Shown here one piece after another: positions 13,133 to 45,741 of a stretch of 64,000 bases of DNA. Position numbers and translations under genes: made by a program. Source of the DNA: Panorpa germanica. Its lineage: Eukaryota > Arthropoda > Insecta > Mecoptera > Panorpidae. The notes beneath the pieces were generated by a model. That model saw only the letters and a list, made by a program, of their open reading frames with translations, did not search any database and was not told where the DNA came from. The stretch lies in the NCBI GenBank assembly GCA_963678705.1, contig OY783208.1, positions 13,885,782 to 13,949,781 on the forward strand, written 5' to 3'. Within the stretch, counting starts at the first letter, position 1; each line of letters begins with the position of its first letter.

Positions 13133-13149
13133 TGTAGGATAATTTGCTT
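13132..13149 (+). promoter_or_regulatory. Primer-binding site, tRNA-Ser type
   Basis: TGGCGCAGTGCTGTAGGA follows directly on the 5' LTR and overlaps its last T. It resembles the TGGCGCAG... sites used with tRNA-Ser by the 17.6/297 group of errantiviruses. Confidence 0.7.
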
Positions 13150-13783: not shown

Positions 13784-14997
13784 ATGGAAAACGTAATATT
13801 ACAATTACAATCACAGAGAAGACAACTCATACAACTCAGGCAAGATATAGCTGAATCACAACAACAACAAAATGAAGACAATATCACTTATAGCAATTCT
13901 TATTTTGAAACTGTTAAAACATTTTACGGAGAACCAACAAAATTAAATGCTTTTATAAGACAAGTAGACAATATAGTTTATATGTTTAGAAATGCAGTTA
14001 ATGAAATCAAAACGTGGATAGTTGAAGTAATTTTATCTAAGTTAGAGGGATCCGCCGAAAGAGTAACGTTAGGTAGACGGATTGATACATGGGACGAACT
14101 TAAAAAAATATTAATTTCTAACTTCTCAATCAAAGGGATGAAGCAACGCTTATCGTAGAAATTATTGAACTGATGCAGAAATCGCAAGAAAGTACGCAAG
14201 ACTTTTTTAACAGATGCTCAGATCATCTAGCAGCTCTATTAGCCAACAGCAGTCAAAAAGATTGTGAAACTCTCTTTAATGGTAAGTCAAACCTATATAC
14301 AACGGTAATACTAAAAGCTTTTACTAGAGGTTTGAGAGGAAGAATGGGAGAGAGTATAAGGGCTAGAATTCCAAATTCAATGGAACAGGCATGGGCTTAT
14401 GTGTTAGACGAAGAAAACGTGCAACACATGCAGTGGAAGAACTACTCATCTCATACACCCGACAGACCAATACAAAGTTTAAAAACATTCCAATATAAAC
14501 CACAAAATATACCCTTCCAACCAAGACCATCATTTATACCATTTCCACCACATTTTATTCCAAAACCACAATATCAACCTATTAACAAAGATATCCGAAA
14601 CTTTGAGCCCATGGAGACTTCAGAAGTGACACGTCTGAATTACCTGAGAAAAGAAAAACAAAAACCCGATATTGACAAAGAAAATATATCTAAAGAACAT
14701 TATGAATATTTTCAACAACAAAAAGAAGAGGACAATAAAGATGCACCAGAAGAATATTTTGAATACATAGAACAACAACCAAAAATAAAATATGTATCAG
14801 AAAATAAATGTACTTATATTCCATACAGACAACAAGCTGGAATAAAAAATACTAAAATTAAACAAAAGTATGTTTATCCGCATCACAAACAACCTGGTGT
14901 TATAACATCGAGAAAAATTGAGAAAATACCTGCCGTATATTATAAATATTACGAACAACCTGGTGAAACTCAACAATGCAAAGACTATGATTTTTAA
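13784..14997 (+). pseudogene. Errantivirus-like gag, one frameshift
   Basis: A start codon at 13784 opens a frame of 124 codons that ends at 14158. The same protein continues in another frame through 14173-14997. The break lies around 14140-14160 and fits a single-base indel. The first part has the YFETVKTFYGEPTKLNAFI and W-containing segments typical of gypsy-type capsid proteins. The second part keeps the RGLRGRMGESIRARIPNSM region. No CCHC knuckle is present, as is usual in errantivirus gag. The C-terminal third is unusually rich in Gln, Lys, Pro and Tyr and holds short repeats of the type EQQP/QQPG. The frameshift should prevent a full product. Confidence 0.8.
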
Positions 14998-14999
14998 CA

Positions 15000-15600
15000 T
15001 CCATCAGATAAAAATAATTAGAGTAAAAACCAACATCCAAAACCTTACTCAAATAATATCTAGATAACAGTGTATAGATATATACTCACTCGAATATAGA
15101 AAATTTAATAAACTAAATAAAGTTTATTTTATCTAGAATTAAAATTAAAATTATGACAACAAATGAGCTATGACACTGACCTCCTAAATAACTACTATAT
15201 AATTACCGTACTTTTTAAAAAGAAATTAAAAAAATTCTGAACTAAATAATCAATATAAATAATTATTAAACAAACAATTAAATATATGAAAATATACCAA
15301 CACGTTTCATACGCTTAACTCTTAGCATACAGAAGAAATACGCTGTACTTAAAATACAGAAGTAATAAACCTTTTGATCTTATAATCAACTTAAATTTAA
15401 AACATTCAATCTAAATTTAAAATATTCAAAATTAACCTAAAAAAAAAAATCTAAAATAATATACGAATATAGTATTGGGATTCGAAACCTTATAAAGAAA
15501 TATAATCCTTATAAAAAATTGAACTTATAAACATATAAATAATATGATCGACTATGAAATAGAGAGTGACGTATTGTATAACAACCCTGCTTACACAATG
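15000..15600 (+). other. Residual sequence where protease and RT should be
   Basis: About 600 bases with many stops and none of the RT motifs. It marks the site of an internal deletion, or of complete decay, of the pol core. Confidence 0.6.
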
Positions 15601-15619
15601 AATCTCTATCGAACGAAGA

Positions 15620-16725
15620 AATGAATGTTGTTTACATCAACTGTACAATACATTCTCAAGAAGAAGATGCTACAGGGATACCCATAAGCGAAAGACCTTT
15701 TGAAACTCATAACCAACAAATTCAAATTAAAATACTATTATACAGATTTAATAAAAAGATTAAAAGAAAAATATTATTGGTATAATACGTAAAAAGAAAT
15801 TGAAGCTTATGTAAACACTTGTACTCTTTGTAAAACTAATAAATACAACAGAAAGCCATTAGATACTATTATGAATCTAACTGAAACACCCAGTAGGCCG
15901 TTTCAAGTATTACATATAGATACCTTTACAATCGATAAACAAGATTTTCTAACAATGCTAGATCCATTAACAAAGTTTGCAATTTCAAACTTCAAAGCAA
16001 AGAATAACTTAGAAATAACTGAAGGAATTCTGAAACTATTTAAACATCACGGAATACCGCAAACAATAATTATGGATAATGGATTAGAATTCAAAAACCA
16101 TCTAGTACAACAATTACTAGGGACACACAAAATAAATGTGCATTTTACAACACCAATTGGACACACAGGAAACAGTCCCGTCCAAAGGCTACATAGCACA
16201 CTTATTGAAAACTATCGAATATTAAAAACACAAAGTAAAGAAGATCCTACTAAAATAATGTTGATTTGTATTATAGCCTATAACAATACAATTCATTCTG
16301 TAACGGAACTAACTCCTATGGAAGCATTGTATGGCAGTCAACATCGAAGAAACATATTTGACCTAAATATCAACACTGAAATTGTTCAAGACAAAATAAA
16401 GGATTACCATAGTAATATGAAAATATTGCATGATAAAATACAAAATAATATTATCAAAAAAAAGAATGATACTATAAACAGAATAAACAACACTAAAAAC
16501 TTAACCAAAATCAAAATAGGTGACTTAGTATATATAAAATTAATCAACAGATCGAAAAGTCAACCACTCAAACAAGGACCATATATAATAACCAAATTGG
16601 ATGACAAGCAAAGAGCTTATATAAAAAATACAGCTACAAACAAAACACTAATTAGACACATTCGAGACTTAGAAAAAACTAAAACAAATCTTACTATTAC
16701 AGAAGATAATGAATCTACGATTTAA
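15620..16725 (+). pseudogene. Errantivirus-like integrase (end of pol)
   Basis: Decayed frames at about 15620-15870 give the linker and part of the zinc-binding HHCC domain (CTLCK), with a TAA within it. An open frame at 15871-16725 (284 codons) carries the core with HIDTF, the second Asp in MDNGLEF, and TPIGHTGNSPV. At the position 36 residues after the second Asp, where the catalytic Glu of the D,D-35-E triad is expected, the codon is CAA (Gln). The C-terminal part has the GPYIITKL-type segment. The enzyme would insert the cDNA. The lost Glu and upstream stops indicate that it is inactive. Confidence 0.85.
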
Positions 16726-16959
16726 CAACAAATCCTATTTAAATAAAAGATATCCTATATCAAACTTGTAAAACACCTTTCCTTTCATCAAACAATAATC
16801 CTTTCTAAGAAATATTTATTATTGTCTAATGAGAACTATTTACAGAACAACGAATTATAAAAAAAATCTAGAATTTAACATCAAACTAGACAAATTCAAT
16901 GATATTCAAAAAAAAAAAAAACAATATCATGAATTAACATCTCGAAAAGAATCTAACAT

Positions 16960-17125
16960 AGAAATATAAAACTATTATAAAAATACTAACTATTATTGTA
17001 CTATGTTTAATTATAGCTATAAGCATTATAATATGTTAAAAAAATAAGAAAAGAAAAAAATTTACAATTATTAATAAACTAAACTCAGCCAATAAATTAG
17101 GAAGAAAATCAATTTTAATAAATTA
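16960..17125 (+). pseudogene. Possible env remnant: membrane anchor and basic tail
   Basis: A reading of this stretch gives about 20 very hydrophobic residues (Ile/Leu/Val-rich), one stop, then a Lys-rich tail just before the purine tract. That is the position and character of the C-terminal transmembrane anchor of an errantivirus envelope protein. The rest of env is absent. The evidence is weak and rests on position and composition. Confidence 0.35.
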
Positions 17126-17142
17126 AAATACGATTTTCATTC

Positions 17143-17154
17143 TAAGGGTGGAGA
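17143..17154 (+). promoter_or_regulatory. Polypurine tract
   Basis: TAAGGGTGGAGA lies immediately before the 3' LTR. It is the expected primer for plus-strand synthesis. Confidence 0.75.
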
Positions 17155-17996
17155 AGTTAACATATGATTACGTAATACATAATATCTTTGTTATATTTAC
17201 TTAATATATAGGAAATGAAATCATTATTTACATCTACTATGAATGATGAATTGAAATATTAAATAATTATAATATTATGTTGACTCAAATAACAAATAAC
17301 TTGCAACGCATTTCATCATAAACAAAATAGGACCATTAAAAATAACTATAAATCAGAACCTTAAGTGTTACTCAGAAATATAAACATTTCCTCGCGACTA
17401 TTGTGACCTATTTAAAAAATGATTAGCTAAACAAAAAGTGAGCATAAATACATTTGTTTGAGACCATTCCAGTCAATCTCTAGAATAACATCACAATAGC
17501 TGTACATGTTATTTTGATTCAGTAATAGTCAATTTTTATCGCATACTATTGACATTGCCAATTAGATTTAAGAAACAAAAGTCGAAAAAGACAAAAGCAC
17601 AAATTGCAAAAGAAACAAAAGTGTTAATTCACAAAACAAGAAAGATTCAAAAACGAATCACAAACAAACGAAACAAGTAAAACTAAAGATTAACAAATAA
17701 ATTAGAAATTAGTGTATTAAAATAATCAACCAACTAACAATTAATATTAATCATACATAATTATATATTAATCAAAACTAACAACAAGTGTAACTTTGCA
17801 TTTGAATTTTATTAAATAAAATACCGTTTTTTAAATATATGTTTTCATTCGAATACTAATGTCAACAAATACTAACAATCTATAAACAACGACGACCACG
17901 ACCACTTCAAACTACGACTCAATAAATTTATAAAGAAAATTAATCTACTAAAATATAAATTTGTTAATATTTTCGGCTCTCAGAAAATATATAACT
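17155..17996 (+). repeat. 3' long terminal repeat
   Basis: Copy of 12264-13132 that lacks a 26-27-base segment near 17897. It is followed directly by the target duplication AGCC. Confidence 0.95.
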
Positions 17997-18000
17997 AGCC

Positions 18001-22446: not shown

Positions 22447-25400
22447 ATGGATAAGACAACGGAAAGGAAGTTCAGAACTTGCTTTATAAGCAAGTGTCCA
22501 AATAATACTTCCAATGCACCAGAAAAAATATATATAGCTGTTCCAAGAAAAACAAGTGAAGCAAAAGCTGCGTGGTTTAAATGTGCAAATAAGAGGTTGC
22601 CAGAATCAAGTTCTTCATATTTTTGTTGCGAAGATCATTTTAATGTAAGGATGCACATAAATTTAATATATTTTATACATAATATATTTATTAAATCGTT
22701 CAAATGTTCTACATTTATTGAATTTAGCTGGAAGAAGATTCAGAAAATTATGTGAGACACAAGATGACAGGATGTCGTATTATAATAAAAAAGGGTGTAG
22801 TACCACATATTTTTGACACACACGTACTAAACCCATTTGAAGAGGAATTAAAAAGAAAACGATTAGTAGCAGATGCTCTTGAGGAATATAATGGAAATAT
22901 ATCCTCGCCTTTTGAATTAGGTAATGTCAAAGTAAGGTACGACATAATTACATTCGTGGATTAAAAATAAATTTCTCATGTATTATATAATTCTCTTTCA
23001 TATATCAAGAGTACAGAAGTGCACATACTTCAAAAGATGAGCCGGCAACTACTCTCCCTACAACAGGTACGATAAAACACTTCACTCATTTTTCTTTTTG
23101 TAATTATTTAATTCAGGGGCATCTTTTGTTTAATTCTTATAAAAAAAATTACTGCATTTCTGTATGTTTTGTGGCGCTTGTTCTATACTCAAAACATGTA
23201 CAAATTACTATTGAATATTCATTATACCACTTTTTAATTAGAATTAGACAATATTCTTGGTTAAAGTTGACCAATAAATGTGAAATATGCCATTTATATA
23301 TGACGCCACTTATATATGGAACAATGTCGTATTATTTATAACCTCAAATTTTAAATTTGAACTTTAACCATTAATATTGTTTATTTCTAATTAAAAAGTG
23401 GTATAAAGACAATTATGTAGAAATTTGCACATGTTTTAAGTATAGAACAAGCGCCACAAAACATACGAAAATGCAGTAATTTTTTCATAAGAATCAAAAC
23501 TAAATAATTACCTTTTTGTAAATTTTTACTAAGAGTCTAAAAATAGTAAAGTACTTTCACCATTGTCGTAAGTGTAAAGCTGCAATTTATGTAGTAAACG
23601 CGCTAGCAAATCATATTTAATAAAAAATAGCATGAAATATAAACAAATTTATATTTAGAAATATGTGGTTTAAGGACATGGAAATGTAACAGATTATTCA
23701 GCTTAATGCAGACTAATGCAGATAAGGATTCTAACTAAATTAAACATAAACAGAAATAATAAAGTATACTTTCTATACATTGGATTTTATTTTTGTTAAG
23801 AAACTACTAATAACATTAAAAAGATAACCGAATTAATAACCAACTGTTAATTAAGTAAATTTCTATACCATAACAGTTTGTTTTCATTGTTTTAATTTCG
23901 TTGTATTGATGAATGAACGACTTTTCACACTCAACACAATAATATGGGTTTAATTTTAAATATGTGCTTTTATGCATTTGATTGAAATTACTACTAAATT
24001 ATTATACAACAAAAACTACAAGTAAATTGATTTTGAATAAAATAGAATGTATCTGATACATAACTGTTCATTAACTAAATATTTTTGTTTTAAATGTGTA
24101 TTTTTGTTACTCTAATTTATTTAAATTGAGGAACAGTTATTATATTTATCGCGTCGAAGAACTGCGTTTCTTATATATTTCATTTAAATTAATTGATTTT
24201 TATTTAGAAATGTGTTTTAAAAATCCACTATGTAAAAACACAAAAACAGTTTCTTATCTGAGTTTATCGTTTTTTGATTCCAAATTTATCAAACATCGAA
24301 ATGTTTTATTATACTTCTTGTATGAAATCAATATTGAGTTATATATATTATTACGAAGATTTAAATGTTTCAATCTATAAAATGTATTGTGACATATCGT
24401 ACAAATATTTGGCGCATATTGACTTGCTTTTGCAATCATTTTATTACAGATGTCTTAAGAAAATAGCCGTACTTTGGGCATTTTTGTTTCCGTGTTTTGG
24501 TTGTTTTAGTCTTTTTGCCTAAATATTTCAATTTCAATTACAAAATGTTACACATAAATTAAATTTTTGCACTTTTAACTTTGTTTTACTTGTATTTCTA
24601 TCACCACATTTATAGTTTGAGCGTACTTTGTGCACATTATGTGCATTTTTTCACATTATTCACACTTTCTCAGATTTAGACAGGCAGCAGAACTGAATTC
24701 TTCTTAAATGAAAGATCAGATCATTTTAATATTGGTGTTTAGTCGTTATTTCAGTGAACAATGTGTATTAATAAATGTGTTGGACCGAGAAAGACTAAGG
24801 AATATTGTAAAGCCGTCAGATGGAACCATAATTATACCATATTTTAATAGGCACTAGTCCATCTAATCTATAAGCAGTAAAGATGAATAATAATAAGCGT
24901 AGTTAATATGAAATCGGATTGCAATCGATTGGGAACATTGAGTGTTCCTGTTGACATAGGCAGCTGTGTGCACTCATATGCTGATTTGCATTTTTAAGCA
25001 TTCTAAGTAGTCTCTTTTACATACTAGTCTTTAGCACAACTTGAACATAAAAATCAGATATAAATCTATATTTCATTTTATTTTTTACAAAAATGAATGG
25101 TCATTATTGGATAACGATATACGACAATGCAGTATTTTTTTTTACAAGTTTCAAAACAAAAAAATGAAGTAATATTTAATAAATTAATTGAATCTCATTT
25201 CAATTTTATTATTATGTTACAGAACAGAATTATTATATAACTTCTACTCATTCGGATGCAACGCCTTTAAATACTTTGCCGTCAAGATACTATATTCCTC
25301 AGAAAATAGCAACAAGGTCAATTGGCATTCAGGTGAAGCCTCAAATGAAAAGTAAAGGAACTACATTTAAGCCCTCTGTTGCCGATAAAAATTTAGCGCC

Positions 25401-25557
25401 AATAAAGTGGAAAAGAACTCGTGATGCAGCTACATCACCAATAAGATTCCCTACATATAAGTATTCTCCAGAAACTTCAAACTGTTCTGAAGTAATATCA
25501 TCAGATGGATTTGTAATGTCCGAGCATAGCACAAACAGTTCAGAATCTGATGACTAA
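22447..25557 (+). CDS. THAP-domain protein, copy A (four exons, 260 aa)
   Basis: My exon model is 22447-22644, 22728-22920, 23010-23066 and 25223-25557. The introns are 83, 89 and 2156 bases, start with GTAAGG, GTAATG and GTACGA, end in AG and fall in phases 0, 1 and 1. The joined frame is open. Residues 1-100 form a THAP zinc-dependent DNA-binding domain: CFISKCPNNT supplies the first Cys pair, a conserved Pro and Trp (AAWFKCANK) follow, CCEDHF gives the last Cys/His, and GVVPHIF stands for the AVPTIF box. Next come the motif KRKRLVADALEEY and a tail with SIGIQVKPQ, a Ser-Pro-rich segment and SEHSTNSSESDD before TAA. THAP proteins bind DNA as regulators or as transposase parts. No transposase domain is seen. 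The start was chosen at the ATG that matches copy B in exon length. Confidence 0.72.
23130..23505. mobile_element. Palindromic MITE in intron 3 of THAP copy A
   Basis: The ends are inverted copies of each other over more than 150 bases. The left arm reads AAATTACTGCATTTCTGTATG, TTTTGTGGCGCTTGTTCTA and ACCACTTTTTAATTAGAA. The right arm is the reverse complement, ending GAAAATGCAGTAATTTTTT. There is no coding capacity. Related copies lie at 26155-26860, 29760-30120, 33480-33815, 41690-41990 and 49840-50000. Confidence 0.8.
23830..24470 (-). pseudogene. C2H2 zinc-finger fragments, antisense in THAP A intron
   Basis: The minus strand reads APNICTICHNTFYRLKHLN near 24420 and NPYYCVECEKSFIHQ near 23935. 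These are single zinc-finger units with the spacing of the array at 19.3 kb, interrupted by stops. A homologous stretch sits in the same intron of copy B (about 29220-29600), so the fragments were there before the A/B duplication. Confidence 0.6.
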
Positions 25558-25976
25558 CTTGTTGGTGAAGTTATAAAAGAGAAGAATCAACTGTTAAAAG
25601 AAAGTGGAAAACAAGTTACTATAAACCCAAAAATTAATAATAAATTTTCTATCATGAAGTTTTTCTATTATATTTCTGGCAAGCAAGTTCAAAAATGTCA
25701 TTAAACTGATGAATATCTTCAAATACGGGAGTGAGTTCTGACATCTGATATTTTATAGCTAAGTATGTCAAGGCTTGCCCGTTTAAAAAGTTGTTTTCAT
25801 ACTTTCAATACAGTCATAGAAATCGTAGGAATGCGATTTTAACAACAAAGTTTATTTTCAGAATATCCGAATCACATTAATCAAATTATCGGTCATCAGA
25901 TACACAATTTTGAAGATGTTCAGTATCTGAATTATGACAATTTTGATTTTTCAGACGTAAATTTAGAAATAAATGT
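25558..25976 (+). other. Downstream conserved exons of THAP copy A (after the stop)
   Basis: Beyond the TAA the sequence stays alignable with the reading frame of copy C (DD[stop]LVGEVIKEK against DDEYVGKVIKKK). A small piece ending in a GTGAGT donor (about 25684-25727) and a piece at 25862-25975 (YPNHINQII ... FEDVQYLNYDNF, donor GTAAGT) match exon-like pieces of copies B and C. They look like exons of a longer ancestral protein that now fall in the 3' untranslated region or are dead. Confidence 0.5.
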
Positions 25977-26154
25977 AAGTTACAAGTATCAAATTTTAAA
26001 ATAATAATTTTCATATTTGAGAGTAACAGCCGACACTGTAAAATGTACGGGGCCCCGAAAGTTTTCTTTTATATTTTGTGATTATTTGCTTTGGTAATCA
26101 ATTATAATAAGACTGATATGGAATTTAAGGTAATTATTAGATGCGACTATCCTC

Positions 26155-26860
26155 TTTTGTTTTCACTTTGTAAAAAAAACTACTGCATTTTTGTATGTTT
26201 TATTATGCTTATTGTATTCTCAAAACATGTCAAAATCACTACGTAATATTTATTTTACCACTTTTAATTAAGAAATAGGAGATATTGAGGGTTAAAGTTG
26301 ACCAAAAAATGTGAAATTTGACATTATTTAACGCATAATTTCGTTACTATTAGCCAGTGTAATACTTACTTCCCAAGATTCCAAAAAATTATAAATATAT
26401 GTGATGGGTTTGAGAATATGATAAAATAAATTAACAAAAGGTTTAAATATATTGACATATTTAAATAGAATTAACATGTAAAATAAAATATTTAGAGTGA
26501 GAAAATTTTTTTGTTATAAGAAAAGGCAGTTTTGGTATAAATAAAGCGCCTATTCTTATAACAAAAAAATGTTTCTCATTCTAAATACTTAATTTTACGT
26601 TTCATAGAACATTTGGTTTGAATCTAAATAAGCCAGTATTAAACAAAAAATCTGTCAATTGATACACATAACAGTGGTGACATAACCTCAATTTTGAAAT
26701 TTCAACTTTAACTCTTAATATCTCCTATTTATTAATTAAAAGTGGTAAAATAATTATTACGTAGTGATTTTGACATGTTTTGAGAATACAATAAGCATAA
26801 TAAAACATACAAAAATGCAGTAGTTTTTTTTGCAAAGTGAAAACAAAAGAGGATAGTCGC
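26155..26860. mobile_element. Palindromic MITE copy carrying an inserted second element
   Basis: The arms at about 26155-26340 and 26690-26860 are inverted copies of the family at 23130-23505. They are split by an insertion of about 350 bases (26340-26690). The insert contains its own hairpin (about 26488-26592) around TTTTTTTGTTATAAGAA and TTCTTATAACAAAAAAA. Confidence 0.7.
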
Positions 26861-27079
26861 ATTTAATAATTACCGAATTTAATTCTAATAATAATAATAA
26901 TATCTAATGGTAGTTAAGATTTGTTAGTATGTTATAAAACAAAATACTATTTATCGATTAGTGAAATTAATGTATTGTAATCATTTACATATTTATTTGA
27001 TTGAAGCATATAGAAGCTAACCTTAAGTACAATTATTACAATAATTACTTTCTTTCTTAATAAATATATTTTTTAATTT

Positions 27080-27345
27080 TAAATGAATTTTATTCTTGAG
27101 TTTTCTCACATTTTTCTTCAATTTTTAAGTGTCGATTTTTTAATTGTTAATTGAAATAGATGTTAATAAATGTGTAATAATGGCGTTTTTATTTTATTAA
27201 ATATCGAAATATTGATGGAGATATAGAAATTAAAAATTTGAACTGTAGTTTAGTGTGCAAATTTCAGTCATATTTATGACGTAGCATGTCGCACTATTTA
27301 GGTTTAGGTCAATGCTGTGGTAATGTTTGGTAGTCCTGTGTATCT
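27080..27345. repeat. Decayed half copy of the GGGCTTGTGTCCT element
   Basis: It has the internal words of the family described at 32415-33037 (GTCGATTTTTTAATTG, GTTAATAAATGTGTA, TTGATGGAGATATAG, GTAATGTTTGGTAG) but no clear terminus. Confidence 0.55.
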
Positions 27346-27362
27346 AACACGTGCGTTATGCA

Positions 27363-27900
27363 GCGTTCTCACGGAGCCACCGTGTAAATCTATCGTCAGA
27401 ATCGACCCGTAAGAAGCTACCATTCCGTCCGATCCATCAACAGTTGAATGGTTGAATAAAAGTTTGATCCAGTCAACCTTGTCGTTCAACTAGCATGGGA
27501 TCCCCGGCATTACTACTTTATTATAATGCATTTGACAGATGATACAGTGTTTTCGCTTTATATTCTTATAAAAAGAGTTTTAGATAAAAAGAATAAGATA
27601 AGAAGAAAAAATCTAGAATAATTTATATAAATATGTATAAATAAATAAATTATCTATTAAATACATTTTTGTTCAGGCATCATAAAATAGTTTCTTTATT
27701 GCAATGTAGTGCTCTAGCGTAAGTTTCTTTACTAATGTTTCAGGTACACCCAATTTATGTCTTCTCAAAATCCATTGCCGGACCGAATAACGGCCCTTGT
27801 TACGTTTCTTCTCCATATTAGATAACATTATTTTTAATTCTTCTTAGTAGAAGTGCTAATTAATGTATTACTGTTTCTCAACTGCATTCACCGGTATTTT
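27363..27900 (-). mobile_element. PIF/Harbinger fragment
   Basis: The left edge has GCGTTCTCACGG, which matches the inverted end GTGTTCTCACGGGGCGA of the complete element at 42213-42930. The interior carries the start of a Harbinger transposase on the minus strand (27673-27816), alignable base for base with the plus-strand remnant inside 42213-42930. The right edge is unclear because another repeat starts at 27913. Confidence 0.6.
27673..27816 (-). CDS. Harbinger transposase N-terminal fragment, 47 codons
   Basis: A small open frame from ATG (27816) to TGA (27673) encodes a very basic peptide with KKRNKGRYSVRQWILRRHKLG followed by an ETLVKKLTLE segment. It fits the R-rich start of PIF/Harbinger transposases (the ...RR.W.R.W..RR...G....L..EL pattern). 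The DDE catalytic part is missing, so it cannot be active. It is unlikely to be a separate gene. Confidence 0.55.
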   Translation of the reverse strand: MEKKRNKGRYSVRQWILRRHKLGVPETLVKKLTLEHYIAIKKLFYDA

Positions 27901-27912
27901 AATTTCTTCTTC

Positions 27913-28220
27913 AATGGGCTTGTGTCCTCATTTTTTAGTGGTCGATTTTTCAATTATTGATTAAAATTGATGTTAATAAATGTGTATTGGCGTGTCTCTT
28001 TTATTAAATATCTAAATGTTGACGGAGATATAGTAATTAAAAATTTGAATTGTAGTTTTAGCGCTAGAGATGTCAGCTATTTGTATTACGTGAAAAGTAT
28101 AGGTCACTTATTTGTTGATTAGGTCAGTGTTCTGGTAATGTTTTGTAGCTATTGTAGCTTTTGTAAATATTCAAGTCAAGTCAAAGAATATAGACTTCCT
28201 ACTTTTGAGACACTCTGTAT
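27913..28220. repeat. Left half of the GGGCTTGTGTCCT element
   Basis: It begins AATGGGCTTGTGTCCTCATT and keeps the family order as far as AGGTCAGTGTTCTGGTAATG. The right half is absent. It is followed by ACTTTTGAGACACTCTGTATA, which resembles a mariner-like element end. Confidence 0.75.
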
Positions 28221-28519
28221 ATTAATTTTTAAAAAAAATTGATAATTAAAATAATAAATTTATAATTTTAGTTGTATTTATTATTTAACCTTTAACTATT
28301 TTAATGTATTCTCTATTTATTTTTTTGCTATTTAAATCAAATTGAAGTGATTCTACCGCGTTTTCCCTTTTCATGACAAATCACAATCATAAAAGGCGCT
28401 CAACCTCGTATACTCTTCCCCTCTATTTTATCCTCTTGCTTTAACACTGTCAGACAGACAGTACTACAGCCAATTAAAGCTTTATTATTTCTCGAAATTG
28501 CTGTAAATAATATTTGACA

Positions 28520-28523
<4 letters not shown>

Positions 28524-28566
<43 letters not shown>
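28524..28566. repeat. (TA)n microsatellite
   Basis: A pure TA tract a few dozen bases upstream of the start of THAP copy B. Confidence 0.95.
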
Positions 28567-28568
<2 letters not shown>

Positions 28569-28596
28569 GAAGAAATTTATATTATTGAATATTGTT

Positions 28597-31317
28597 ATGG
28601 AAGGCATAGCGAATAGTGTGAAAACACCATGCTTTGTAGATTGGTGTCCAAATAATACTCTTACTGCGCCTGAAAAAATATATTTACCTGTACCAAGAAA
28701 AAAAAGTGATTTGAAAGCCGAGTGGTTTAAATTTGCAAATAAGAATATGCCAGAATCTACCACCCCATATTATTGTTGTGAAGACCATTTTAATGTAATT
28801 AAATAGTTAAGCATATACGTAAATTTATAATATTTCACACATGATATATTTAATAATCTGTGAAATAATATTTATTATGTTCTACATTTATTTACTTTAG
28901 TTAGAAGAAGATGCAGAAAATTATGTAAGACACAAGTTGACAGGATGCAGAATTGTATTGAAAAAGAATGTTATACCACATCTTTCGGACTGTCGATCTA
29001 ATGATGAGCAGGAAGTGAAAAGACAACGTTTGGTAAAAGATGCTTTAGAAGAATATGATCAAAAAATATCCTTGTCTTCTCAATCAGGTAATGGAGATAC
29101 AAGGTGTCATATTCTTTATTTAGTGGTAATGCATTTCTCATGCGTTATAATCTCAATTTTCAGAAATCAAGAGTAGACAAGGTATCCAAACTTTTCCTTC
29201 AACAGTTACAGGTGCTATAAAATTCTTATATATTTCATTTAAATCAATTGATTTTTATTTAGATGTGTTTTAAAAGTAAACTTGAGAAAGCGGAAATGAC
29301 TTGTGACATTTATAAAGAAAAAGTTAGTTTCATATCTAAATGCATCTTTTTACATTCCAAATATTAAGCAATCATCTAAATTATTTATTATATTTGTTGT
29401 ATGAAATGAATTTTGAATACGATTGCGTATGTTATTAATTATTATGATGATTTAAATATTTCAATCTTTAAAACGTATTGTGACATGACGTACCATTATT
29501 TGGTACACTTCTTTCACTTCTACATATTTAAATCTATGAAAATTTAATTGAATTGCCTTTGCAACCATTTTATTACAGACGTCACTTGAAAATAGGCGTA
29601 CTTTGTACATTTTTTGATTATTTATTTTGGCTTTAGTTGCTTAGCCTTTTAGTCTTAATCTTTCAATTTCAATTACAAAATATTACACATAAATTTTAAA
29701 TTACATTACACCTGAATGAAATTTTGGTAATTATTTGATGTTACAATTTTGTTTCGAATCTCAAAAGAAAACTACTCCACTTGTCTATATTTTATGGCGC
29801 TTTTAATATAGTCAAAACATGTACAAACTTCTTTGTAATATTCATTATACCACTTTTTATTAAAAAATTGACAGTATTTGTGGTTAAAGTTGACCAATAA
29901 ATGTGAAATATGACATTTATATTTGAAGCCTCATATATGGAACAATGTCGTATTATTTCTAACCTCAAATTGGAAATTTCAACTATAACGGGTAATATTG
30001 TATATTTCTAAATAAAAAGTAGTATAATGTATATTACATAGTGATTTTTAGATGTTTTGGGTATGCAATCTCCATAAAGCATACGATAATGCAGTAGTTT
30101 TTCTTTATAAGTTGCAAAACTAAAAGTGACTTACACTTTTAAGTATATTTCAGTTATACTTTTATTTGTTTGTCCATTATAAATTGCACAACACATTTAG
30201 TCAAATTACTTCTCACATCTGAAATCAAATATAAATCATTCACAAGTTGATAGGTATTTTTATTAATAATATTGATATTGAGTAATGCATATATCTGACT
30301 CTATTTTTGCTCAACATATTTGATCAAGAGTACCTTCTTCACCATCATTATAGTTGGGAGTATACTTTGAATTCTCAAATAATTCAATAAAATCAAGCTT
30401 TTGGCATTCAACGCAATTTTTAAATGTGTTTCTTGTTTATACAGAGAAGTACTTTAGATATAAAATGGTTTTCACATTCACACTTTCTCGGATTTAGAAT
30501 GACAGGGGAACTGAATTCTTCTCAAATGAAAGATCAGATCATTTTTATTTATTTTTTCTAATTTAGGAGTTTAGTTGTTTTTACATTGTACAGTTTTACA
30601 ATATTTACTAATAATGGACGGACCGTGAACGGACTAAGGAATAATAGTAAAGCTGTTAAGAAAAGCTACCTTTAGTGCTCCGATCACTTCCAACATTGTC
30701 GAAACTCCTCTGGGGGCCTGGTCTATTTCGTATTTTGTGCACATCTCTACAAGTGCATTAAGCATTCTAAATAGTTACCTTTTATAATATTTTTTAGCAA
30801 AACTAAACATAAAGTCAGAAATAAATCTATACTTCATTTTATTTTTTACAAAAATTAATGGTCATTATTGGATAATGATATTTGAAAATGCAGTTTTACA
30901 AGTTTCAAAACAAAAAATGAAGGTATATCGAATAATTAATAAATCAATTTAATCTCATTTCATTTTTATTAACATATTACAGATCATAATTATTATGCGA
31001 CTTTACCTTATTCGGATGCAACGCCTCTAAATACTTTGCCGTCAAGATACTGTCTTCCTCAGAAAATAGCAACAAGAACAATTGGCATTCAAGTCAAGCC
31101 TCAAGTTAAAAGTAAAGGAACAACATTTAAGCCCTCTGTTGCCGATAAAAATTTAGCGCCAATAAAGTGGAAAAGAACTCGTGATGCAGCTACATCACCA
31201 AAAAGATTCACTACATATAAGTTTTCTCCAGAAACGTCAAACTGTTCTGAAGTAATATCATCAGATGGATATGTGATGTCCGAGCATAGCACAAACAGTT
31301 CAGAATCTGATGACTAA
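28597..31317 (+). CDS. THAP-domain protein, copy B (four exons, 255 aa)
   Basis: My exon model is 28597-28794, 28901-29087, 29164-29211 and 30983-31317, with phases 0, 1 and 1 as in copy A. The first and last exons are exactly as long as in A (198 and 335 bases). The joined frame is open. The THAP features are CFVDWCPNNT, AEWFKFANK, CCEDHF and NVIPHLSD. The motif KRQRLVKDALEEY and the tail with TIGIQVKPQ, KWKRTRDAATSP and SEHSTNSSESDD follow. Exon 3 uses the acceptor TTTTCAG at 29163; a site 8 bases later would give a stop. The last exon is almost identical to that of A at the protein level. That suggests recent duplication or gene conversion, or constraint. Confidence 0.7.
29760..30120. mobile_element. 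Palindromic MITE in intron 3 of THAP copy B
   Basis: Same family as 23130-23505 and in the equivalent intron. The arms carry TACTCCACTTGTC / ATGCAGTAGTTTTTC and TTATACCACTTTTTATTAAA with its inverse. It appears to have been copied with the surrounding duplication. Confidence 0.7.
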
Positions 31318-31800
31318 CTTGTTGGTGAAGTTATAAAAGAGATGAATCAACGGTTAAAAGGTACTAGAGAGCAAGTTAGGATATATCTTATATAAAATTA
31401 ATAACATTATTCTATCATGAAAGTTTTTCTATTATATTTCTTGCAAGTAGGTTCAAAATGTTAAAGTTAGTAAATACAAAAATGTCATCCAACTGATGAA
31501 TGTCTTCGAATACGAGGGTGAGTTCTGATATCTGATATTTTATCATATTAAGCTAAGTATGTCAAGTCCTGCCCGGTCAAAAAGTTTACTCTATGCATTT
31601 AACAAAGTTTATTTTTATTTCAGAATATTCGAATCATTTTAATCATATTCGATCCAGCCACAGATAAAACATTTTAGCATGAAACTTTCACGCCAGACCA
31701 GAATTTTAAAAATGTTCAATATCTTGATTATGGCAATGTCGGTAGTAATTATTCTTTAGACCTAATTCAATAAAAAAATGTTAGTTGCAAGTATCAAATT
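31318..31800 (+). other. Downstream conserved pieces of THAP copy B (after the stop)
   Basis: The TAA at the end of the frame is followed by LVGEVIKE-like codons, as in copy A. An exon-like piece with a GTGAGT donor lies at about 31468-31515, and a decayed counterpart of the last exon at 31623-31790, which contains stops. These are remnants of a longer ancestral gene. Confidence 0.45.
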
Positions 31801-32414
31801 TTATTCAGGTTTTTTTTTTGGATTTTTGCTCATAACTCGAATACGCTGCAATAGCAATGTGAACTATAGGCCTAAATCTATGTAAGGAGGCGGTATTCGC
31901 ACATGTCTAGTACATTGTTTTTTTTGTAGCTATAAGATTTCACAAGTGACAGTGGGGTTTTTACAAATATTTTCTGATTCTCAGTCAATTTTATATGGAG
32001 AATGTTTAAAATAGCGTAAAACGACTTATTTTATCAATATTATTATTTTTATATTTAAGTGTGTTAGAGGCGCATTAAGAAAGATACCGTAAAATTTACG
32101 GGACCGTCAAAGGTTTCTTTTATATGGTGCGTATAATGCTTAGTAATTAATTATAACAAGACTGATATGAAAATTAATGATTTTCGTGAAATATATATTA
32201 CATACTTTTTTTCTTAATAATTACATTTTTATATATAGTTTGTACCCCAAAAATGAAATATATTTTTGAACTTTAAATTAATTTTATTTTTGATATTTCT
32301 CTTTCAAATGCATTTATTATTTGGATTATTTGGTTACAAATGTTGCACGAAGCAACAAATTCTGTTTAATATTTTTGTGGTTTCGAACAAAAATTTTACT
32401 GTTTAAATGATCTT

Positions 32415-33037
32415 AATGGACTTGTGTCCTCATTTTTTAGTGTTCGATTTCTCAATTGTTGATTTAAATTGATGATAATAAATGTGTATTGGCGTGTCTA
32501 TTTTATTAAATATCTAAATATTGACGGAGATATAGCAATTAAAAGTTTGAATTGTAGTTTTAGCGCTAGAAATGGTCGGCCATATTTGTATGACGTGAAA
32601 TGCATTTTCACGTCTGTTATATGTTCAGTAGGTCAGTGTTGTGGTAATGTTCTGTAGCTGTTGGTAGTCAAATAATCAAGTCAAGTCAAAGAATAATAAG
32701 TTTTTATTTTATTTAACCCTGCTAAGGCAGACATAATATTGAAATTTTATTGTTCCTTGAAATATCTGTAAATAATATTTGATATTTTGATATATATATA
32801 CACATAGCAGAGATTTACGATCTGTAAGGTTGGTAAGGTTACATAAGGATTGTGATGTCACATGCACTTGGAATGCCTTTAATAATTAAAAAGACAAAAT
32901 GACTTTTTTAATGGTTAATATCTCTTAACATATAATGAGTTATTAAAAAATAATTGAACATTTGAGGTTCTAGTAACCCACTTTATCAATATATAGTACA
33001 CTTTTATCGAAATTAAGACATAGGACACAAGCCCATT
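32415..33037. mobile_element. Complete non-autonomous element with GGGCTTGTGTCCT ends
   Basis: The left end AATGGACTTGTGTCCTCATT pairs with the right end AGGACACAAGCCCATT. It is about 620 bases long and non-coding. Other copies: 45105-45741 (complete), 27913-28220 (left half), 27080-27345 (decayed), 47539-48127 (inverted, right end missing) and 49130-49838 (rearranged). The class is unknown; no clear target duplication was found. Confidence 0.8.
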
Positions 33038-33289: not shown

Positions 33290-34100
33290 TGGTTACAAGC
33301 TTTATCATGTGGCATTAACTTTAAATTGCATTTTCTACAATTTACTGTTCTCCATTTCATGCACACTAAAAACATGGAAATTTAATATTATTCAAAATTA
33401 ATTAAAACAAAATAGTATTTTCTGTCACAATTAGCCCAATTTAATTTTAGTACTATTGGTACTATTTGAACATTAGGTGAAAAGTTCTGTTATGAGCATC
33501 TTAAGTAAAAAATCATTGGGCTATTGTTAATTTTGGTAATTATTTTACTCAGTGCTTTCTATTTAAAAATAGACAATATTAACTAGTAAAGTTGACATTT
33601 CTAATTTACAGTTAAAAATAAAATGACAATGTTTCATATACAAGTCAAAATGGCGTTGTACTTTACATTTATTGTTCAACTTTAACCAGGACTATTGCTT
33701 ATTACTTAATAAAACATGATATAATAATTATTACGCAGTCATTAGGTATGACTATATTCAAAGCACCATAAAACACAAATGCAGTAGTTTCTTTTAGAGC
33801 TTCAAAACAAAAAATGCCAGGAGTATTAAATACATTTTGACAGATCATTGTAAAAGTTAAATTAATATTTTTCCGAAAAAAAAAACTAGGTATATTCTTC
33901 TAGATATCTAAGAGTGGAGTATGCAATAATATAGGTAAGTATTATTACATTTTAATTTTAATTGAAATGTTGTGTAAGGTATTTCGTATTTATTATACTT
34001 TTATGAATAATGCACAAAACAATTAATCATAAATAAGCTAGTAATTTACAACATTCCCTAGAATGCTTATTTTCGTTTTAATTCTATTTTTATTATTCAA
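33290..34100. repeat. Duplicated segment, partner at 41430-42212 plus 42931-43010
   Basis: About 800 bases align in the same orientation with DNA just upstream of THAP copy C. Shared words include CTGTTCTCCATTTCAT, AAAATAGTATTTTC, ATATTCTTCTAGATATCTAAGAGT and GAGTATGCAATAATATAGGTAA. It includes a palindromic MITE copy (33480-33815). At the partner locus a PIF/Harbinger element is inserted. This copy lacks it and shows the empty site near 33984. Confidence 0.75.
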
Positions 34101-34637: not shown

Positions 34638-34782
34638 TTAATTAACGTCTATAATATCATTGTTATCAAGATTGTCATAATCAAGATATTCAACATCTTC
34701 AAAATCCTGGTCATCATCTTGCGTGGAAATTTCATACATGCCTTCAGGTGGATGATTGTTTGATTCAAATAGTTCGGATATT
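34638..34782 (-). other. Last exon-like piece of THAP copy C
   Basis: An acceptor TTTTGTTTTAG precedes 34782. The open frame then runs to TAA at 34638 and includes the acidic stretch FEDVEYLDYDNLD. It matches the downstream piece of copy A (FEDVQYLNYDNF at 25900-25945), with a different phase at the left because A has lost bases. It is likely the C-terminal exon of the ancestral protein. Confidence 0.5.
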
Positions 34783-37639: not shown

Positions 37640-40600
37640 GAAGAGAGCCATCAGTTTGATGATATTTTTGAACCTGCAGACAATAAATATATTAGAAAAA
37701 CTTCATGCTAGGAAATCAATATTAATTTTTGGATTTAGACTAACTTTTTTTACATTTCTTCTTAACTGTTGTTTCTTTTTCTTTATAACTTTGCCAACAT
37801 ATTCATCATCAGATTCTGAACTGTTTGTGCTATGCTCGGACATCACATATTCATCTTCACTTTCTTCAGAACAGCTTGATGTTTCTGGAGAAGGCTTGTA
37901 TATAACGAATTTGATTGGTGAAGTAGCTACATCACGAGTTTTTATCCACCTTATTGGCGATAAACTTCTATCGGAAACAGAGGGCTTACATGTTGTTCCT
38001 TTTCTTCTAACTTGAGGTTTGACCTGAATGCCAATTGACCTAGTTTTTTTTTCATTCAATGCCGGTGCTTTTTGTGGAAGATCGTCTGTTGATGGCAATA
38101 TATGGTTAAAACGTCTCTAGTATATTATTAAAAATTAAATAACAAAAAGGAGATTAAACGCTGAGTAAAAATTAAAAAATAATAAATTAATTACAATTCG
38201 AGCACTTAATATAAGCTAACTTTAAGTTTTTTATAATAAACCACTTAAAATTAAACATGTTTTTAATTATCTTTCAATCCATATCAAAACATTTTAACAT
38301 CGTTAATAAAAGATTGTTTTACTTAGTAACAAGCCTTTTTTTAACTTATTAATTAGTTTTGACTTTTGGCGTTTATTTAGAAAAGGATTTCCTTTTTTAT
38401 AACAGTAAGATACAAGTCTTCGTATCATACCATTCCTGTATCAACAAAAGCAAGTTTTTAAAGTGCTTAGCTCATTTCCTGTCTATTTTTTTTTCATAGC
38501 AGCTGATGAAGTTAATGTATTTGCTGAGGATTTAAGTCATGATAAAGCCAGCAATTTTTCGTACATTACATTAGTCATCGTCTAAGTAACTACTCATGAT
38601 AGCATGGAAAAAAAAACTAAAAGAGAGAGCTATCCAAGAAAACGCTGGCTCTAACAAAGTTAAAGAATGGATAATTTTAAAAAAAATCTTTAAAATGACG
38701 AAAGCTCGAGAACCATGTGACTTTTGCTGAGGTCATGTTAGGCTTATTCGATGCATTTGAGGCAGATTTACCCCCGGTGACGTGCCCTTTTTGGCAAATC
38801 CTGTATAAATTTAACCATTATTATATTGACCCTGAAACTTCATATATTTTTCACCTTCAAACTAATGACTACAGTCTAATAACTTTTTTGATAATTATAG
38901 CGGTTGAAAGCGGTTTACATTTAATTAGTGGAAAAAACATTTAAAGGCTAAAAAACAGACAAAAAAATTAGGAAAAACTTCCTTTTGTTAATAAAAATTG
39001 GTATTTGTTTACCGTATAATCGATTTTCAAATATCGAACGAGGTTTTGAAGACACATTACCCTATCCTATAAAAAAAGTACTAGCTCTATGTTCAATTAA
39101 AAAAGTGTATTTAATTTGGACATTGAAAAGTATGATATTTAACGAAAAGTAAATTAAAAGTCACGAAAATTTTATTTGAAACATGTATATTTTTTAAATT
39201 CATACTATAAATTTAGATGACTGACGCAAAATTAATGCACATGGCTTGCATTATTTTGCACTTTTGCCTTTTTGTTCTAATATTTGTTATTGTCAGTGAT
39301 TATTGAAGCCACAATCATTCTAATACTACTATTAGATCTTTAAATTGAATTATGGGTCAGATGCAGAGTCGGAAATATCGTTATCGTACAGGTGAACAGT
39401 CATGAGTACTAAGTTATACACAATAACGTACATACGATTTGCTACATAGTTTACAAGAACACTGCTTCTATGTATAGCGTTATTCAAGAGTTAATACGGT
39501 AAATATTTACTTCGTGTACAAAAAAAATAAAAATTGGTAAAATTTTGACAAAATTACTCTAGTTTCGATTGTTTTAAGCTCATAATAAAGCAATCATCAT
39601 AATAGATATGTATTATAATGTTTATTATATAACTTAAGTTTAAGAAATATTAAATGTTAATGGTTAAATTAGATAAATAAATATTAAAGCTGTCATTTTA
39701 ATAAAATAGAGTTAACATAGGCCATTGTAATTAAAACTAAAACTATTTGTAAAAAATTGAAGTAATTTAAATGGTCACAAATAAATATATTTTATATATG
39801 CAACTGTAATTGAAGTTGCATAGTATCAGAACTGCATTTAAAAGTGAAATCTTATATCTATTTAAACAAAGAAATTTAGCTAATTAAATTAGTTATTAAA
39901 TAACTTTCAACTTTTCAATTTAATTATTTATCGCGATTAATTAGTGTTTATCATAAATATAATATTTTTATTTATTTAATACACATTACTTCAAATTATG
40001 AATGGTTAATAATAAGAACTAAATATAACTTTCGAACGTAACCATGACGCAGACCTAATTTAAGCATAAATAATCTAGAATTCAGCTCCTTTTATTTCTA
40101 TCCGACGAGAGGTCCTTACTAGCACGAGAAATAAGCAAATTAGGTCATTTGTACTTCGTTTCTGTAAGCAATTCTGCAGGTTTATTACAACAAATTAATT
40201 ATTATATTAAATATATATTTTTAATTTGTTTTATTTGATTAGAACACTAATAAGCCAGCTAAACAATATGTTACATAACCTGGCGTTGTAAGTTCATATT
40301 TAATTTTCCATTTCAATCAGCCAAATACTTAATTTTTTTACCATTTATTACATTTTAAAAAGATGCGGAATTGTAATAGATAATATACTGAATTGCTATT
40401 ATATTTTCTATATCAAAAGCACCTTAAATGACATTTTTTGCAATTTTGATTAATTATTTATTAAGTAAACATTTACTAAACAAATCAATTAAAATAAAAT
40501 TAAAAAACATGAAAATAAAAATAAATATTTCAGGTTTCTATCGTACCTGCAACTGTAGAAGGAAGAGAAGTTCTGTCAGCTTCAGAAGTATATACCCATT

Positions 40601-41294
40601 TGCACTCTTGATATATGAAAGTTGAAAAAATAATACACAAAACATACGTTTTAAATATATGAAAATTTGAAGGTGAAATTTTTGAAGGATATTTTACAAT
40701 ACCTGGTTTTGACAACGATTTTATACGATTGTATTCTTCAAAAGCATCAGCTACTAAACGTTTTCTTTCTAAATACTTTCCTAATGAAATAGGCGAGTCT
40801 TTAGAATGTTTATCAATAGGTTTATCAAGCGCGAATATTCGATCGTATTCTTCGAGAGCATCTGCTACTAACCTCTTCCTTTTCAAATGGATTAGGTGAG
40901 TCCTTAGAACGTTTATAATTAGGTTGACAGTCAAAAACATGTGGAACTATACCGTTCTTTATTTTAATATGACATCCTGTTAACTTGTGTTTTACTAAAT
41001 TTGCTGCGTCTTCTTCTAACTAGAATCAGTAAATGTAGAACATAAACAACATTTAGTAATATTTAAAATTAATGCTTAATGCTTATCTATATATTTATTT
41101 ACATTAAAATGATCCTCGCAACAATAATAGGATCTACCAATTTTCGGTGTTTTGGTGGTACTTGCAGCTTTAAACCATGCAGCTTCATAATACTTTGGAG
41201 CTCTGACAAAAATTTTGTTTGGTGCATTACATGTACTATTTAGACACAAATAAACAAAGCAATTTTTAAAATGTTTATTCACTTTCTCTTCCAT
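37640..41294 (-). pseudogene. THAP-domain gene, copy C (inverted, broken)
   Basis: Exon 1 is 41294-41103 (MEEKV..., CFVYLCLNST, CCEDHF, donor GTAAAT). Exon 2 starts at 41019 (LEEDAANLVKHKLTGC, GIVPHVFD). After PNPFE, 11 bases present in copy A are missing, which shifts the frame before the KRKRLVADALEEY motif. That motif occurs twice here (about 40890-40840 and 40770-40720; ERKRLVADAFEEY in the second). A short exon with a GTACGA donor ends near 40544. The last long exon (38098-37740) keeps TRSIGIQVKPQ and SEHSTNSSESDD, then reads on with EYVGKVIKKKKQQ where A and B stop. Its 5' part is truncated. A mini-exon with a GTGAGT donor lies at about 37683-37640. It lies in inverted orientation to A and B. 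Confidence 0.7.
38110..40530. other. Intron-like DNA of THAP copy C, no gene recognised
   Basis: AT-rich with frequent stops on both strands. The open stretch at 38717-38944 has no recognisable domain. Confidence 0.4.
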
Positions 41295-45104: not shown

Positions 45105-45741
45105 AATGGGCTTGTGTCCTCATTTTTTAGTGGTCGATTTTTTAATTGTTGATTGAAATTGATGTTAATAAATGTGTATTAGCGTGTCTATTTTATTATA
45201 TCTAAATATTGACGGAGATAAAGCAATTAAAAGTTTGAATTGTAGTTTGTAAATGGTCGGCCATATTTGTATGACGTAAAACGCATAACGTCAGTTTGCG
45301 TCAGTTATTTGTTGAGTAGGTCAGTGCTGTGGTAATGTTCTGTAGCTGTTGGTAGTCAAATAATCAAGCCAATTCAAAGGATATTAAGTTTTTATTTTAT
45401 TTAACCCTGCTAAGGCAGACATAATATTTAAATTTGAGTGTTACTTGAAATAGCTGTAAATAATATTTCATATTTTTATATATAAATACATATAGCAGAG
45501 ATTTATGAGCTGTAAGGTTAATAACCTTACACAAAGATTGTGATGTCACATGCACCTGAAATGTGTACAAAGTTGAATCCCTTTAATAATTAAAGAGACA
45601 AAATGACTTTTTTAATTGTAAATACCTCTTAACGTATAAGGAGTTATTAAAAAATAATTGAACATTCGAGGTTTTAGTAACCCACTTTATCAATATATAG
45701 TACACTTTTATAGAAATTAAGACATAGGACACAAGCCTATT
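45105..45741. mobile_element. Complete copy of the GGGCTTGTGTCCT element
   Basis: Same orientation as 32415-33037 and alignable throughout, from AATGGGCTTGTGTCCTCATT to AGGACACAAGCCTATT. Confidence 0.85.

Follow-up and report, generated by a model that had tools for sequence, protein, structure and literature searches.

Copy B of a tandem THAP gene pair in Panorpa germanica probably carries the left end of an ISL2EU-type transposon

The window analysed here, one 64,000-nucleotide stretch of the Panorpa germanica genome, carries two tandem THAP genes, copies A and B. With a probability of about 0.7, we read both as genes that descend from an insect transposase gene of ISL2EU type (THAP-linker-HTH-DDE) and lack the DDE domain, and B as chimeric: an ISL2EU element would have contributed its left end with THAP exons 1–3, joined within intron 3 to a linker exon of A type. 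This reading is built on the gene anatomy, the mosaic of B, the terminal repeat upstream of it, the lack of a DDE match in the window and the occurrence of the transposon family on several contigs.

Anatomy of the THAP gene cluster

The exons of copies A and B are as follows.

22447..22644, + strand: copy A exon 1 (THAP, part one), 198 nt
22728..22920, + strand: copy A exon 2 (THAP, part two)
23010..23066, + strand: copy A exon 3
25223..25557, + strand: copy A exon 4 (transposase linker; TAA end common to A and B), 335 nt
28597..28794, + strand: copy B exon 1, 198 nt; ATG at 28597
28901..29087, + strand: copy B exon 2
29164..29211, + strand: copy B exon 3 (acceptor common to transposon copy L041)
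30983..31317, + strand: copy B exon 4, 335 nt

The sequence-only reading of this DNA had described two open four-exon frames with matching introns, and this anatomy was reproduced: the reconstructed frames encode 260 aa plus stop in A and 255 aa plus stop in B, all introns are GT..AG with phases 0, 1 and 1 in both copies, and the first (198 nt) and last (335 nt) exons are equal in length. Their assignment as THAP genes was borne out by Pfam PF05485 (THAP), which matched A (32.3 bits, E 1.7e-7) and B (30.1 bits, E 8.3e-7) above its cut-off of 23.9 bits. The exon-3 acceptor of B lies 8 nt upstream of the homologous site in A and C; B as a broken pseudogene was considered on account of this shift and set aside, because L041 has the same acceptor. 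A comparison with solved structures gave no convincing match (best E 0.32). A structure model of A, low in confidence (mean pLDDT 46.6), has a THAP-compatible strand-helix-strand order and was not used as evidence.

A and B are not alone: a third copy, C, belongs to the same cluster and runs on the minus strand from 41294 to 34638.

41103..41294, − strand: copy C exon 1
40703..41019, − strand: copy C exon 2 (frame-shifted, internal duplication)
40547..40606, − strand: copy C exon 3
37703..38116, − strand: copy C exon 4; its frame stays open for 33 codons beyond the A/B stop
34638..34782, − strand: copy C exon 5 (acidic tail and stop)
25862..25990, + strand: sequence in A with homology to C exon 5; stopped when read in the frame of C
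31624..31790, + strand: sequence in B with homology to C exon 5; stopped when read in the frame of C

The TAA common to A and B falls before the extra part of exon 4 and exon 5 of C. The long open frame of C exon 4 is not the one that would be entered by phase-1 splicing at 38116. An open frame of C through an internal intron was also tried, and its 56 splice solutions were too many to have any meaning. A profile search of the window at E 1 gave no HTH or DDE match beyond the exons and chance-level hits; what A, B and C represent of a THAP-DDE transposase gene is the THAP and linker half, the catalytic domain being absent.

The two halves of copy B

ISL2EU elements (PHIS superfamily) are described with a transposase containing THAP, HTH_Tnp_4 and DDE_Tnp_4, a convergent YqaJ ORF, terminal inverted repeats and AT on both sides (PMC4482050). 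The same group features are seen in a family of this genome represented by copies L041, L033 and C4, which has a THAP-HTH-DDE transposase and a YqaJ ORF; its transposase domains were pieced together from several copies, no single intact copy having been read. Exons 1–2 of L041 match THAP (E 5.9e-8), the exon-4 ORF of L033 matches DDE_Tnp_4 (E 3.9e-39), and L033 also matches HTH_Tnp_4 at E 3.8e-5, under that profile's own cut-off (23.6 vs 27 bits). The C4 copy has a 327-aa ORF, 187 aa of which match YqaJ (PF09588, E 7e-13), and perfect terminal repeats with AT flanks, CATAAT/GGGCTTGTGTCC...GGACACAAGCCC/ATTAGG, so that the family shows terminal repeats and an AT target duplication in A/AT/T context. 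Copies or fragments were found on at least six contigs (C1, C4, C5, C7, C20 and C21), a lower bound, as 40 of 2635 candidates were scored. In 264 kb, AT flanks either end of 3/3 paired short elements, and short complete elements lie in the window.

32418..33034, unstranded: short complete element flanked by AT at either end, with the terminal repeats of ISL2EU
45108..45738, unstranded: short complete element flanked by AT at either end, with the terminal repeats of ISL2EU

Copy B is a mosaic of an ISL2EU-like front half and an A-type back half.

27912..29222, + strand: 5′ half of B, ISL2EU-like (left end with exons 1–3 and the start of intron 3)
27916..27927, + strand: GGGCTTGTGTCC, ISL2EU-type left terminal inverted repeat that precedes B, matched with 0 mismatches
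29219..29223, + strand: approximate mosaic junction in B intron 3 (L041-like before, A-like after)
29223..31803, + strand: 3′ half of B, of A type (intron 3 with exon 4 and the 3′ flank)

Across the front half, 20 of 21 overlapping 60-nt windows are closer to L041 than to A and the remaining one is a tie. Identity to L041 vs A is 0.872 vs 0.737 in exon 1, 0.866 vs 0.780 in exon 2, 0.849 vs 0.795 in intron 1 and 0.842 vs 0.592 in intron 2. Sisterhood of A and B was rejected for the front half (p-AU 5.8e-6 with DNA, 0.023 with protein), and so was the grouping of B with L041 for the back half (p-AU 1.8e-69). The 60-nt windows and the sisterhood tests led us to reject simple tandem duplication in the front half of B. 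Upstream of B lies a left end that L033 also has in place, and the C4 copy in turn shares that of L033; at 28165–28473 the left end of B is ∼230 nt longer than that of L033. Copy B is not a whole element with both terminal repeats and a DDE domain: it has the left repeat only, with no right terminal repeat at ≤2 mismatches within 27928–33022, and no DDE match in the window. No terminal-repeat match at ≤2 mismatches occurs in the window before 27916, so none lies beside A, and neither A, B nor C has a pair of them. The earlier statement that the pair does not represent two separate transposon insertions is not supported, given the ISL2EU-like 5′ half of B, its terminal-repeat match and the spread of the family over contigs.

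In the back half, A and B were compared over alignable parts: six of them, which span intron 3, exon 4 and the near 3′ flank, are 81–92% identical, and the next two parts of the 3′ flank 59% and 78%. Noncoding identity differs between the front (introns 1–2) and the back (intron 3 and flank; p 0.0024). Exons 1–2 are as divergent as introns 1–2 (Fisher p 0.59). The proposed duplication of introns and flanks stands for intron 3 and the near 3′ flank; it fails for the 5′ flanks, which are identical at only 26/60 nt (0.489 over 500 nt).

A palindromic MITE in intron 3 of both copies had been taken as part of the duplicated sequence.

23095..23525, unstranded: palindromic MITE in A intron 3, not collinear with the MITE of B
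29722..30150, unstranded: palindromic MITE in B intron 3

The MITE of A starts 28 nt past the donor, and that of B lies beyond the stretch homologous to A 24168–24565. Since these positions are not collinear and related MITEs occur elsewhere in the window, the MITE is unsafe as evidence of a shared ancestral intron and was set aside as proof of a duplicated one. The two are mutual nearest among seven aligned, with an identity of 0.79, like other intron parts, and may be one ancestral copy that was locally rearranged. Among the inverted-repeat pairs listed around A (25 of 56) and B (25 of 35), we found MITEs, (TA)n and short chance-like pairs.

Origin of B and selection on the frames

Insertion of an ISL2EU element beside an A-type copy, followed by recombination or deletion in intron 3, would produce the fusion seen in B, and the common intron phase (1) would have kept the fused frame open. 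That A and B have identical intron phases then follows from the origin of both halves in one kind of transposase gene. Like B, A may be a chimera, and an older one, because its front half is closer to the transposon than to C or L032. Much more tentatively, A and B, if expressed, might be small zinc-dependent DNA-binding proteins devoid of transposase activity, which could bind element ends or nearby host sites as regulators or competitors.

Frame preservation in A and B exceeds what neutral chance allows. Neutral simulation predicted 9.7 stops, and 0/5000 runs were stop-free; both frames are open. At most 3 coding indels are seen vs 15.7 expected under neutrality (P 1.2e-4). The plain likelihood-ratio test of omega is biased, with neutral simulation medians of 0.68–0.82 rather than 1; therefore simulation counts were preferred. 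Constraint, claimed earlier for both genes, is seen over the long span A-L032, with omega of 0.177 over exons 1–2 and 0.390 over exon 4 (0/150 neutral simulations as low, each). A-B has an omega of 0.415 (1/300 as low) and of 0.233 over exons 1–2, pairwise values being scattered on such short exons. As signs of a domesticated host gene these values point both ways, since no purifying selection is evident for B-L041, for which omega is 0.589 (61/150 as low).

That last value suits a reading to which we give nearly even odds, namely that A, B and C are decaying, functionless transposase relics, their frames open through recent origin or past selection inside transposons. It is compatible with the chimera history and does not exclude it. 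The A-L041 comparison (omega 0.557 over exons 1–2, 45/150 as low), the neutral-like exon 4 of B-C and A-C (78/150 and 33/150 as low), the shared TAA, the stopped exon 5 and the frame-shifted C all agree with decay. However, the indel deficit and the low A-L032 values speak against it, although no DDE was found beside either copy (for L032, within the 3.3 kb examined).

A reverse transfer, in which ISL2EU captured the front half (exons 1–3 and left flank) of a B-type donor and then spread, is unlikely in our judgement. A single event would be enough for it, because A, B, C and L032 come in one order in either half once L041 is set aside; nor was a front-half tree that places L041 outside A+B+C+L032 rejected at 0.05 (p-AU 0.053). 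B nested in the transposon clade and B basal to it fit equally (p-AU 0.512 vs 0.489), so the tree does not fix the direction of recombination, and the deep divergence of the transposon's own linker leaves room for such a capture. Yet the front half of L041, L052 and L053 continues into their own exon 4 type (in L054 for ∼35 nt), the left end is in place in L033 and C4, and B has a left repeat only.

Segmental duplication of one constrained host THAP gene, with no transposon involved, is very improbable: the intact frames, the A-B omega, the similarity of the back halves with their noncoding parts, an exon 4 more conserved than the adjoining noncoding parts (p 1.8e-6) and the restriction of exon-4 matches to the window's own contig (14/14 genome-wide, 12 of them DDE-less) all accord with it, but the front half of B clusters with ISL2EU copies rather than A, an ISL2EU-type terminal repeat lies upstream of B, and the 5′ flanks are unrelated. 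What survives of that proposal is the duplication of the 3′ halves, the location of the exon-4 matches on one contig and the better-than-neutral frames.

Relation to known systems

Under the chimera reading, B lets one trace how a neighbouring gene type seems to have received a DNA-binding domain, a start codon and a 5′ flank from a DNA transposon, by a join within an intron of matching phase. Because relatives of both parents, ISL2EU copies and an A-type paralogue, are present in one genome, the fusion should be datable and its function testable. Tandem position and matched intron phases are insufficient to call a segmental duplication. Among the titles and passages of the literature search, no report of such a fusion was found.

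The KP protein of Drosophila retains the THAP domain of the P-element transposase. It is described as a 207-aa repressor from small non-autonomous P-element copies (PMC7776569). Like KP, A and B would be short proteins derived from a transposon with an N-terminal THAP domain in its transposase, their repressor role being hypothetical; different from KP, they belong to another transposon superfamily, the DDE-less matches are confined to a single contig, and two lineages meet in B. It is a long shot that the catalytically dead genes of the cluster repress a recently active ISL2EU transposon in the manner of KP. In that scenario B would have refreshed its DNA-binding half by fusion with the invader's left end, and repressor and transposon would thereby go on recognising the same ends.

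Domesticated insect genes derived from PIF/Harbinger resemble A and B in their transposase origin, one likely tandem duplication and lack of terminal inverted repeats (PMC9710019); they differ in retaining the transposase, and the word THAP is absent from the text of that paper. Two beetle proteins, P0023 (Dendroctonus) and P0026 (Anoplophora), are single gene models that may be truncated predictions of DDE-bearing genes. As modelled, they are DDE-less THAP proteins of 232–234 aa, 32–35% identical to A; they resemble the genes described here in a THAP with a CCEDHFNL motif and, behind it, an IQ(V/A)..K(P)...SP linker.

Gene models and protein identity of copies A, B and C

The window (G000:C5:13885782-13949781) belongs to a genome of 464 Mb in 249 contigs. 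The two neighbouring four-exon THAP genes proposed by the sequence-only reading, A and B, are borne out: the exon joins are present in the sequence, both copies have GT..AG sites and intron phases of 0, 1 and 1, and their first and last exons are equal in length. Both also score above the Pfam THAP cut-off. There is a third copy, C, in minus orientation; besides A, B and C, tblastn found no further copy in 264 kb around the window.

Exons of the three THAP copies (window positions)
22447-22644, 22728-22920, 23010-23066, 25223-25557, plus: copy A, exons 1-4, joined frame of 260 aa
28597-28794, 28901-29087, 29164-29211, 30983-31317, plus: copy B, exons 1-4, joined frame of 255 aa
41294-41103, minus: copy C, exon 1
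41019-40703, minus: copy C, exon 2, with frame change and internal duplication
40606-40547, minus: copy C, exon 3
38116-37703, minus: copy C, exon 4
34782-34638, minus: copy C, exon 5, acidic tail with a stop at its end

Exon 4 of C stays open for 33 codons beyond the position of the TAA common to A and B. Phase-1 splicing at 38116 would miss this frame; C must therefore carry one or more additional defects or use a different acceptor. By sequence and alignment, the stretches of A and B homologous to C exon 5 carry a TAA in C's frame within six codons; in A, a different frame stays open.

The named protein relatives are mostly from beetles and other insects. They contain the THAP motif CEDHFNLEED or a near form of it, followed by a linker and a transposase. 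In the precomputed annotations, P0014 and P0016 carry THAP, HTH_Tnp_4 and DDE_Tnp_4, P0013 THAP and DDE, P0020 and P0021 HTH and DDE, and P0019 DDE. Alignments of A with several transposase relatives span the THAP domain and the linker, and a search of the window with the HTH/DDE part of the relatives gave no convincing match. C exon 4 aligns with the transposase of L033, a DDE-bearing copy elsewhere on the same contig, over 114 aa (33.9%, E 4e-17), and the alignment stops at the first HTH/DDE residues. By these comparisons, all three copies represent the front portion of a gene for a THAP-DDE transposase and lack the part that codes for the catalytic domain.

The ISL2EU family and the mosaic structure of copy B

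PMC4482050 describes most autonomous candidates of the ISL2EU transposons as having one ORF for a transposase with DDE, HTH and THAP and one ORF with a YqaJ domain, and gives their target duplications as AT. All 14 genomic matches to A exon 4 are on contig C5: A, B and C, L032 at 17.71 Mb, eight loci (L034-L040, L042) at 17.88-20.35 Mb, a region that also contains THAP matches, and the DDE-bearing L033 (15.92 Mb) and L041 (7.60 Mb); the other matches are classed as DDE-less within ∼1.5 kb on each side. L033 (DDE_Tnp_4 E 3.9e-39, HTH_Tnp_4 sub-threshold) is without exons 2-3; in L041, exons 1-3 are open and the remainder contains two TGA.

A DNA search with L041, in which the best 40 of 2635 candidates were scored so that contig and match counts are lower bounds, gave at least 56 matches, with copies or fragments on C1, C4, C5, C7, C20 and C21; among the 56 matches listed, 21 are another dispersed repeat occupying L041 375-748. 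Eight of these matches, at C5 14.707-14.812 Mb, are ISL2EU THAP-half fragments that follow one another on the same strand, and in seven a short DDE piece is attached; in both fragments inspected, L052 and L053, exon 1 has a gap of one base and exon 2 contains a TAA. The copy on contig C4 ends in GGGCTTGTGTCC and GGACACAAGCCC, with AT flanking both; it contains THAP exon 1 and about the first 55 nt of exon 2, together with a DDE remnant and, in convergent orientation, an ORF of 327 aa, of which 187 aa match YqaJ (E 7e-13). Its matching parts are 99% and 97% identical to L041; therefore, the family has moved or been copied recently. Seven ISL2EU terminal repeats with at most two mismatches occur in the window against 0.70 expected (0/100 shuffles reach seven), and all three paired short elements in the 264 kb have AT on both sides.

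A and B had been read as a plain segmental duplication, which is contradicted by the two halves of B: its front follows L041 and its back follows A. Compared to L041, B is 0.872 identical in exon 1, 0.866 in exon 2, 0.849 in intron 1 and 0.842 in intron 2; compared to A, the values are 0.737, 0.780, 0.795 and 0.592. Among 21 overlapping segments across 28560-29219, 20 favour L041 over A and one is a tie, and the exon-3 acceptor of B is the same as that of L041. From ∼29223, B resembles A (0.81–0.85 in the compared parts of intron 3, 0.925 in exon 4, 0.826 in the near 3′ flank, 0.59 and 0.78 further on), and its linker is only 0.573 identical to that of L041. Front-half trees reject an A+B grouping (p-AU 0.023 for protein, 5.8e-6 for DNA); the back-half tree supports it (96/92) and rejects B+L041 (p-AU 1.8e-69).

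Because the front-half trees place B inside or beside the transposon clade with no preference (p-AU 0.512 v 0.489), and one with L041 outside A+B+C+L032 is narrowly not rejected (p-AU 0.053), which way the transfer went is judged from the terminal repeat upstream of B at 27916 and from the left end, where L033 matches 27912-28165 and, across the start of B, 28473-28805. Taken together, B is most likely a transposon-gene chimera adjoining an older DDE-less paralogue. A itself may be an older fusion: its front-half DNA is nearer the transposon (0.761) than C (0.683) or L032 (0.700), and its back half is nearer C and L032, which is suggestive only.

The most probable course of events is that an ISL2EU element landed next to or inside an A-type copy and that sequence was joined within intron 3 at ∼29219-29223, with loss of the A-type front and of exon 4, DDE, YqaJ and the right end of the element. 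As an alternative for intron 3, A would have received a 1.1-kb insertion just past the donor, and the join would be located in the transposon instead. For the chimera, splicing of the fused transcript would still be possible because both versions of intron 3 are phase 1; if the product is made, it would consist of THAP and linker, with possible DNA binding and no catalytic domain. The P element offers a precedent, since its small copies code for repressors, among them the KP protein of 207 aa (PMC7776569); a KP-like role for A and B is no more than an inference.

Constraint on the reading frames

The sequence-only reading had also proposed that A and B remain under constraint, which stands in part. 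The codon-model omega between A and B is 0.415 overall (1/300 neutral simulations as low), 0.25 in exons 1-3 (0/300) and 0.444 in exon 4 (28/300); a counting method gives 0.65. Between A and L032, omega is 0.177 in exons 1-2 and 0.390 in exon 4 (0/150 each). However, it is 0.589 for B-L041 (61/150) and 0.557 for A-L041 (45/150), and in exon 4 it is 0.594 for A-C (33/150) and 0.780 for B-C (78/150). Exon 4 is conserved above the adjoining noncoding parts in the A-B comparison (p 1.8e-6), but conservation in exons 1-2 does not exceed that in introns 1-2 (p 0.59).

The 24 A-B indels in 1174 bp of six alignable noncoding parts predict 15.7 in the coding parts, where at most three are seen (P 1.2e-4). 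Simulated neutral drift of A-B size gives a mean of 9.7 stops, and 0/5000 runs are stop-free; for the front half of B alone, 272, 111 and 51 of 2000 runs are stop-free at 30, 45 and 60 changes, respectively. Within the THAP domain, A and B differ less often at columns conserved in the family (14/50 vs 22/44, p 0.035); only 28/49 highly conserved columns are matched by A and only 27/49 by B. These comparisons support constraint over a long span, as distinct from present host function. Part of this history passed inside transposons, where transposase selection likewise preserves open frames.

Other elements in the window and genome

DDE_Tnp_4 has at least 151 matches genome-wide, many of them equal-scoring, with a 325-aa open frame and on different contigs; this set is apparently another mobile family. 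Non-LTR retrotransposon ORFs (RVT_1, Exo_endo_phos_2, PRE_C2HC) lie at 2456-6609 and a Mutator-like transposase fragment (PF20700, E 3.6e-16) at 8958-9446, both on the minus strand. An ORF at 48306-48608 resembles EGF-type repeats by eye and has no Pfam match at 0.01. Direct repeats at 12264-13125 and 17155-17999, 96% identical, flank an integrase ORF, and 12264-17999 is a probable LTR retrotransposon. A near-perfect inverted repeat is located at 43187-43807 (280-nt arms, 99% complementary, 61-nt spacing). The MITE at 26129-26874 is of the intron-3 type (173-nt arms, 97% complementary, 400 nt between them) and has relatives at 33555-33818, 41722-41991 and 49832-50030.
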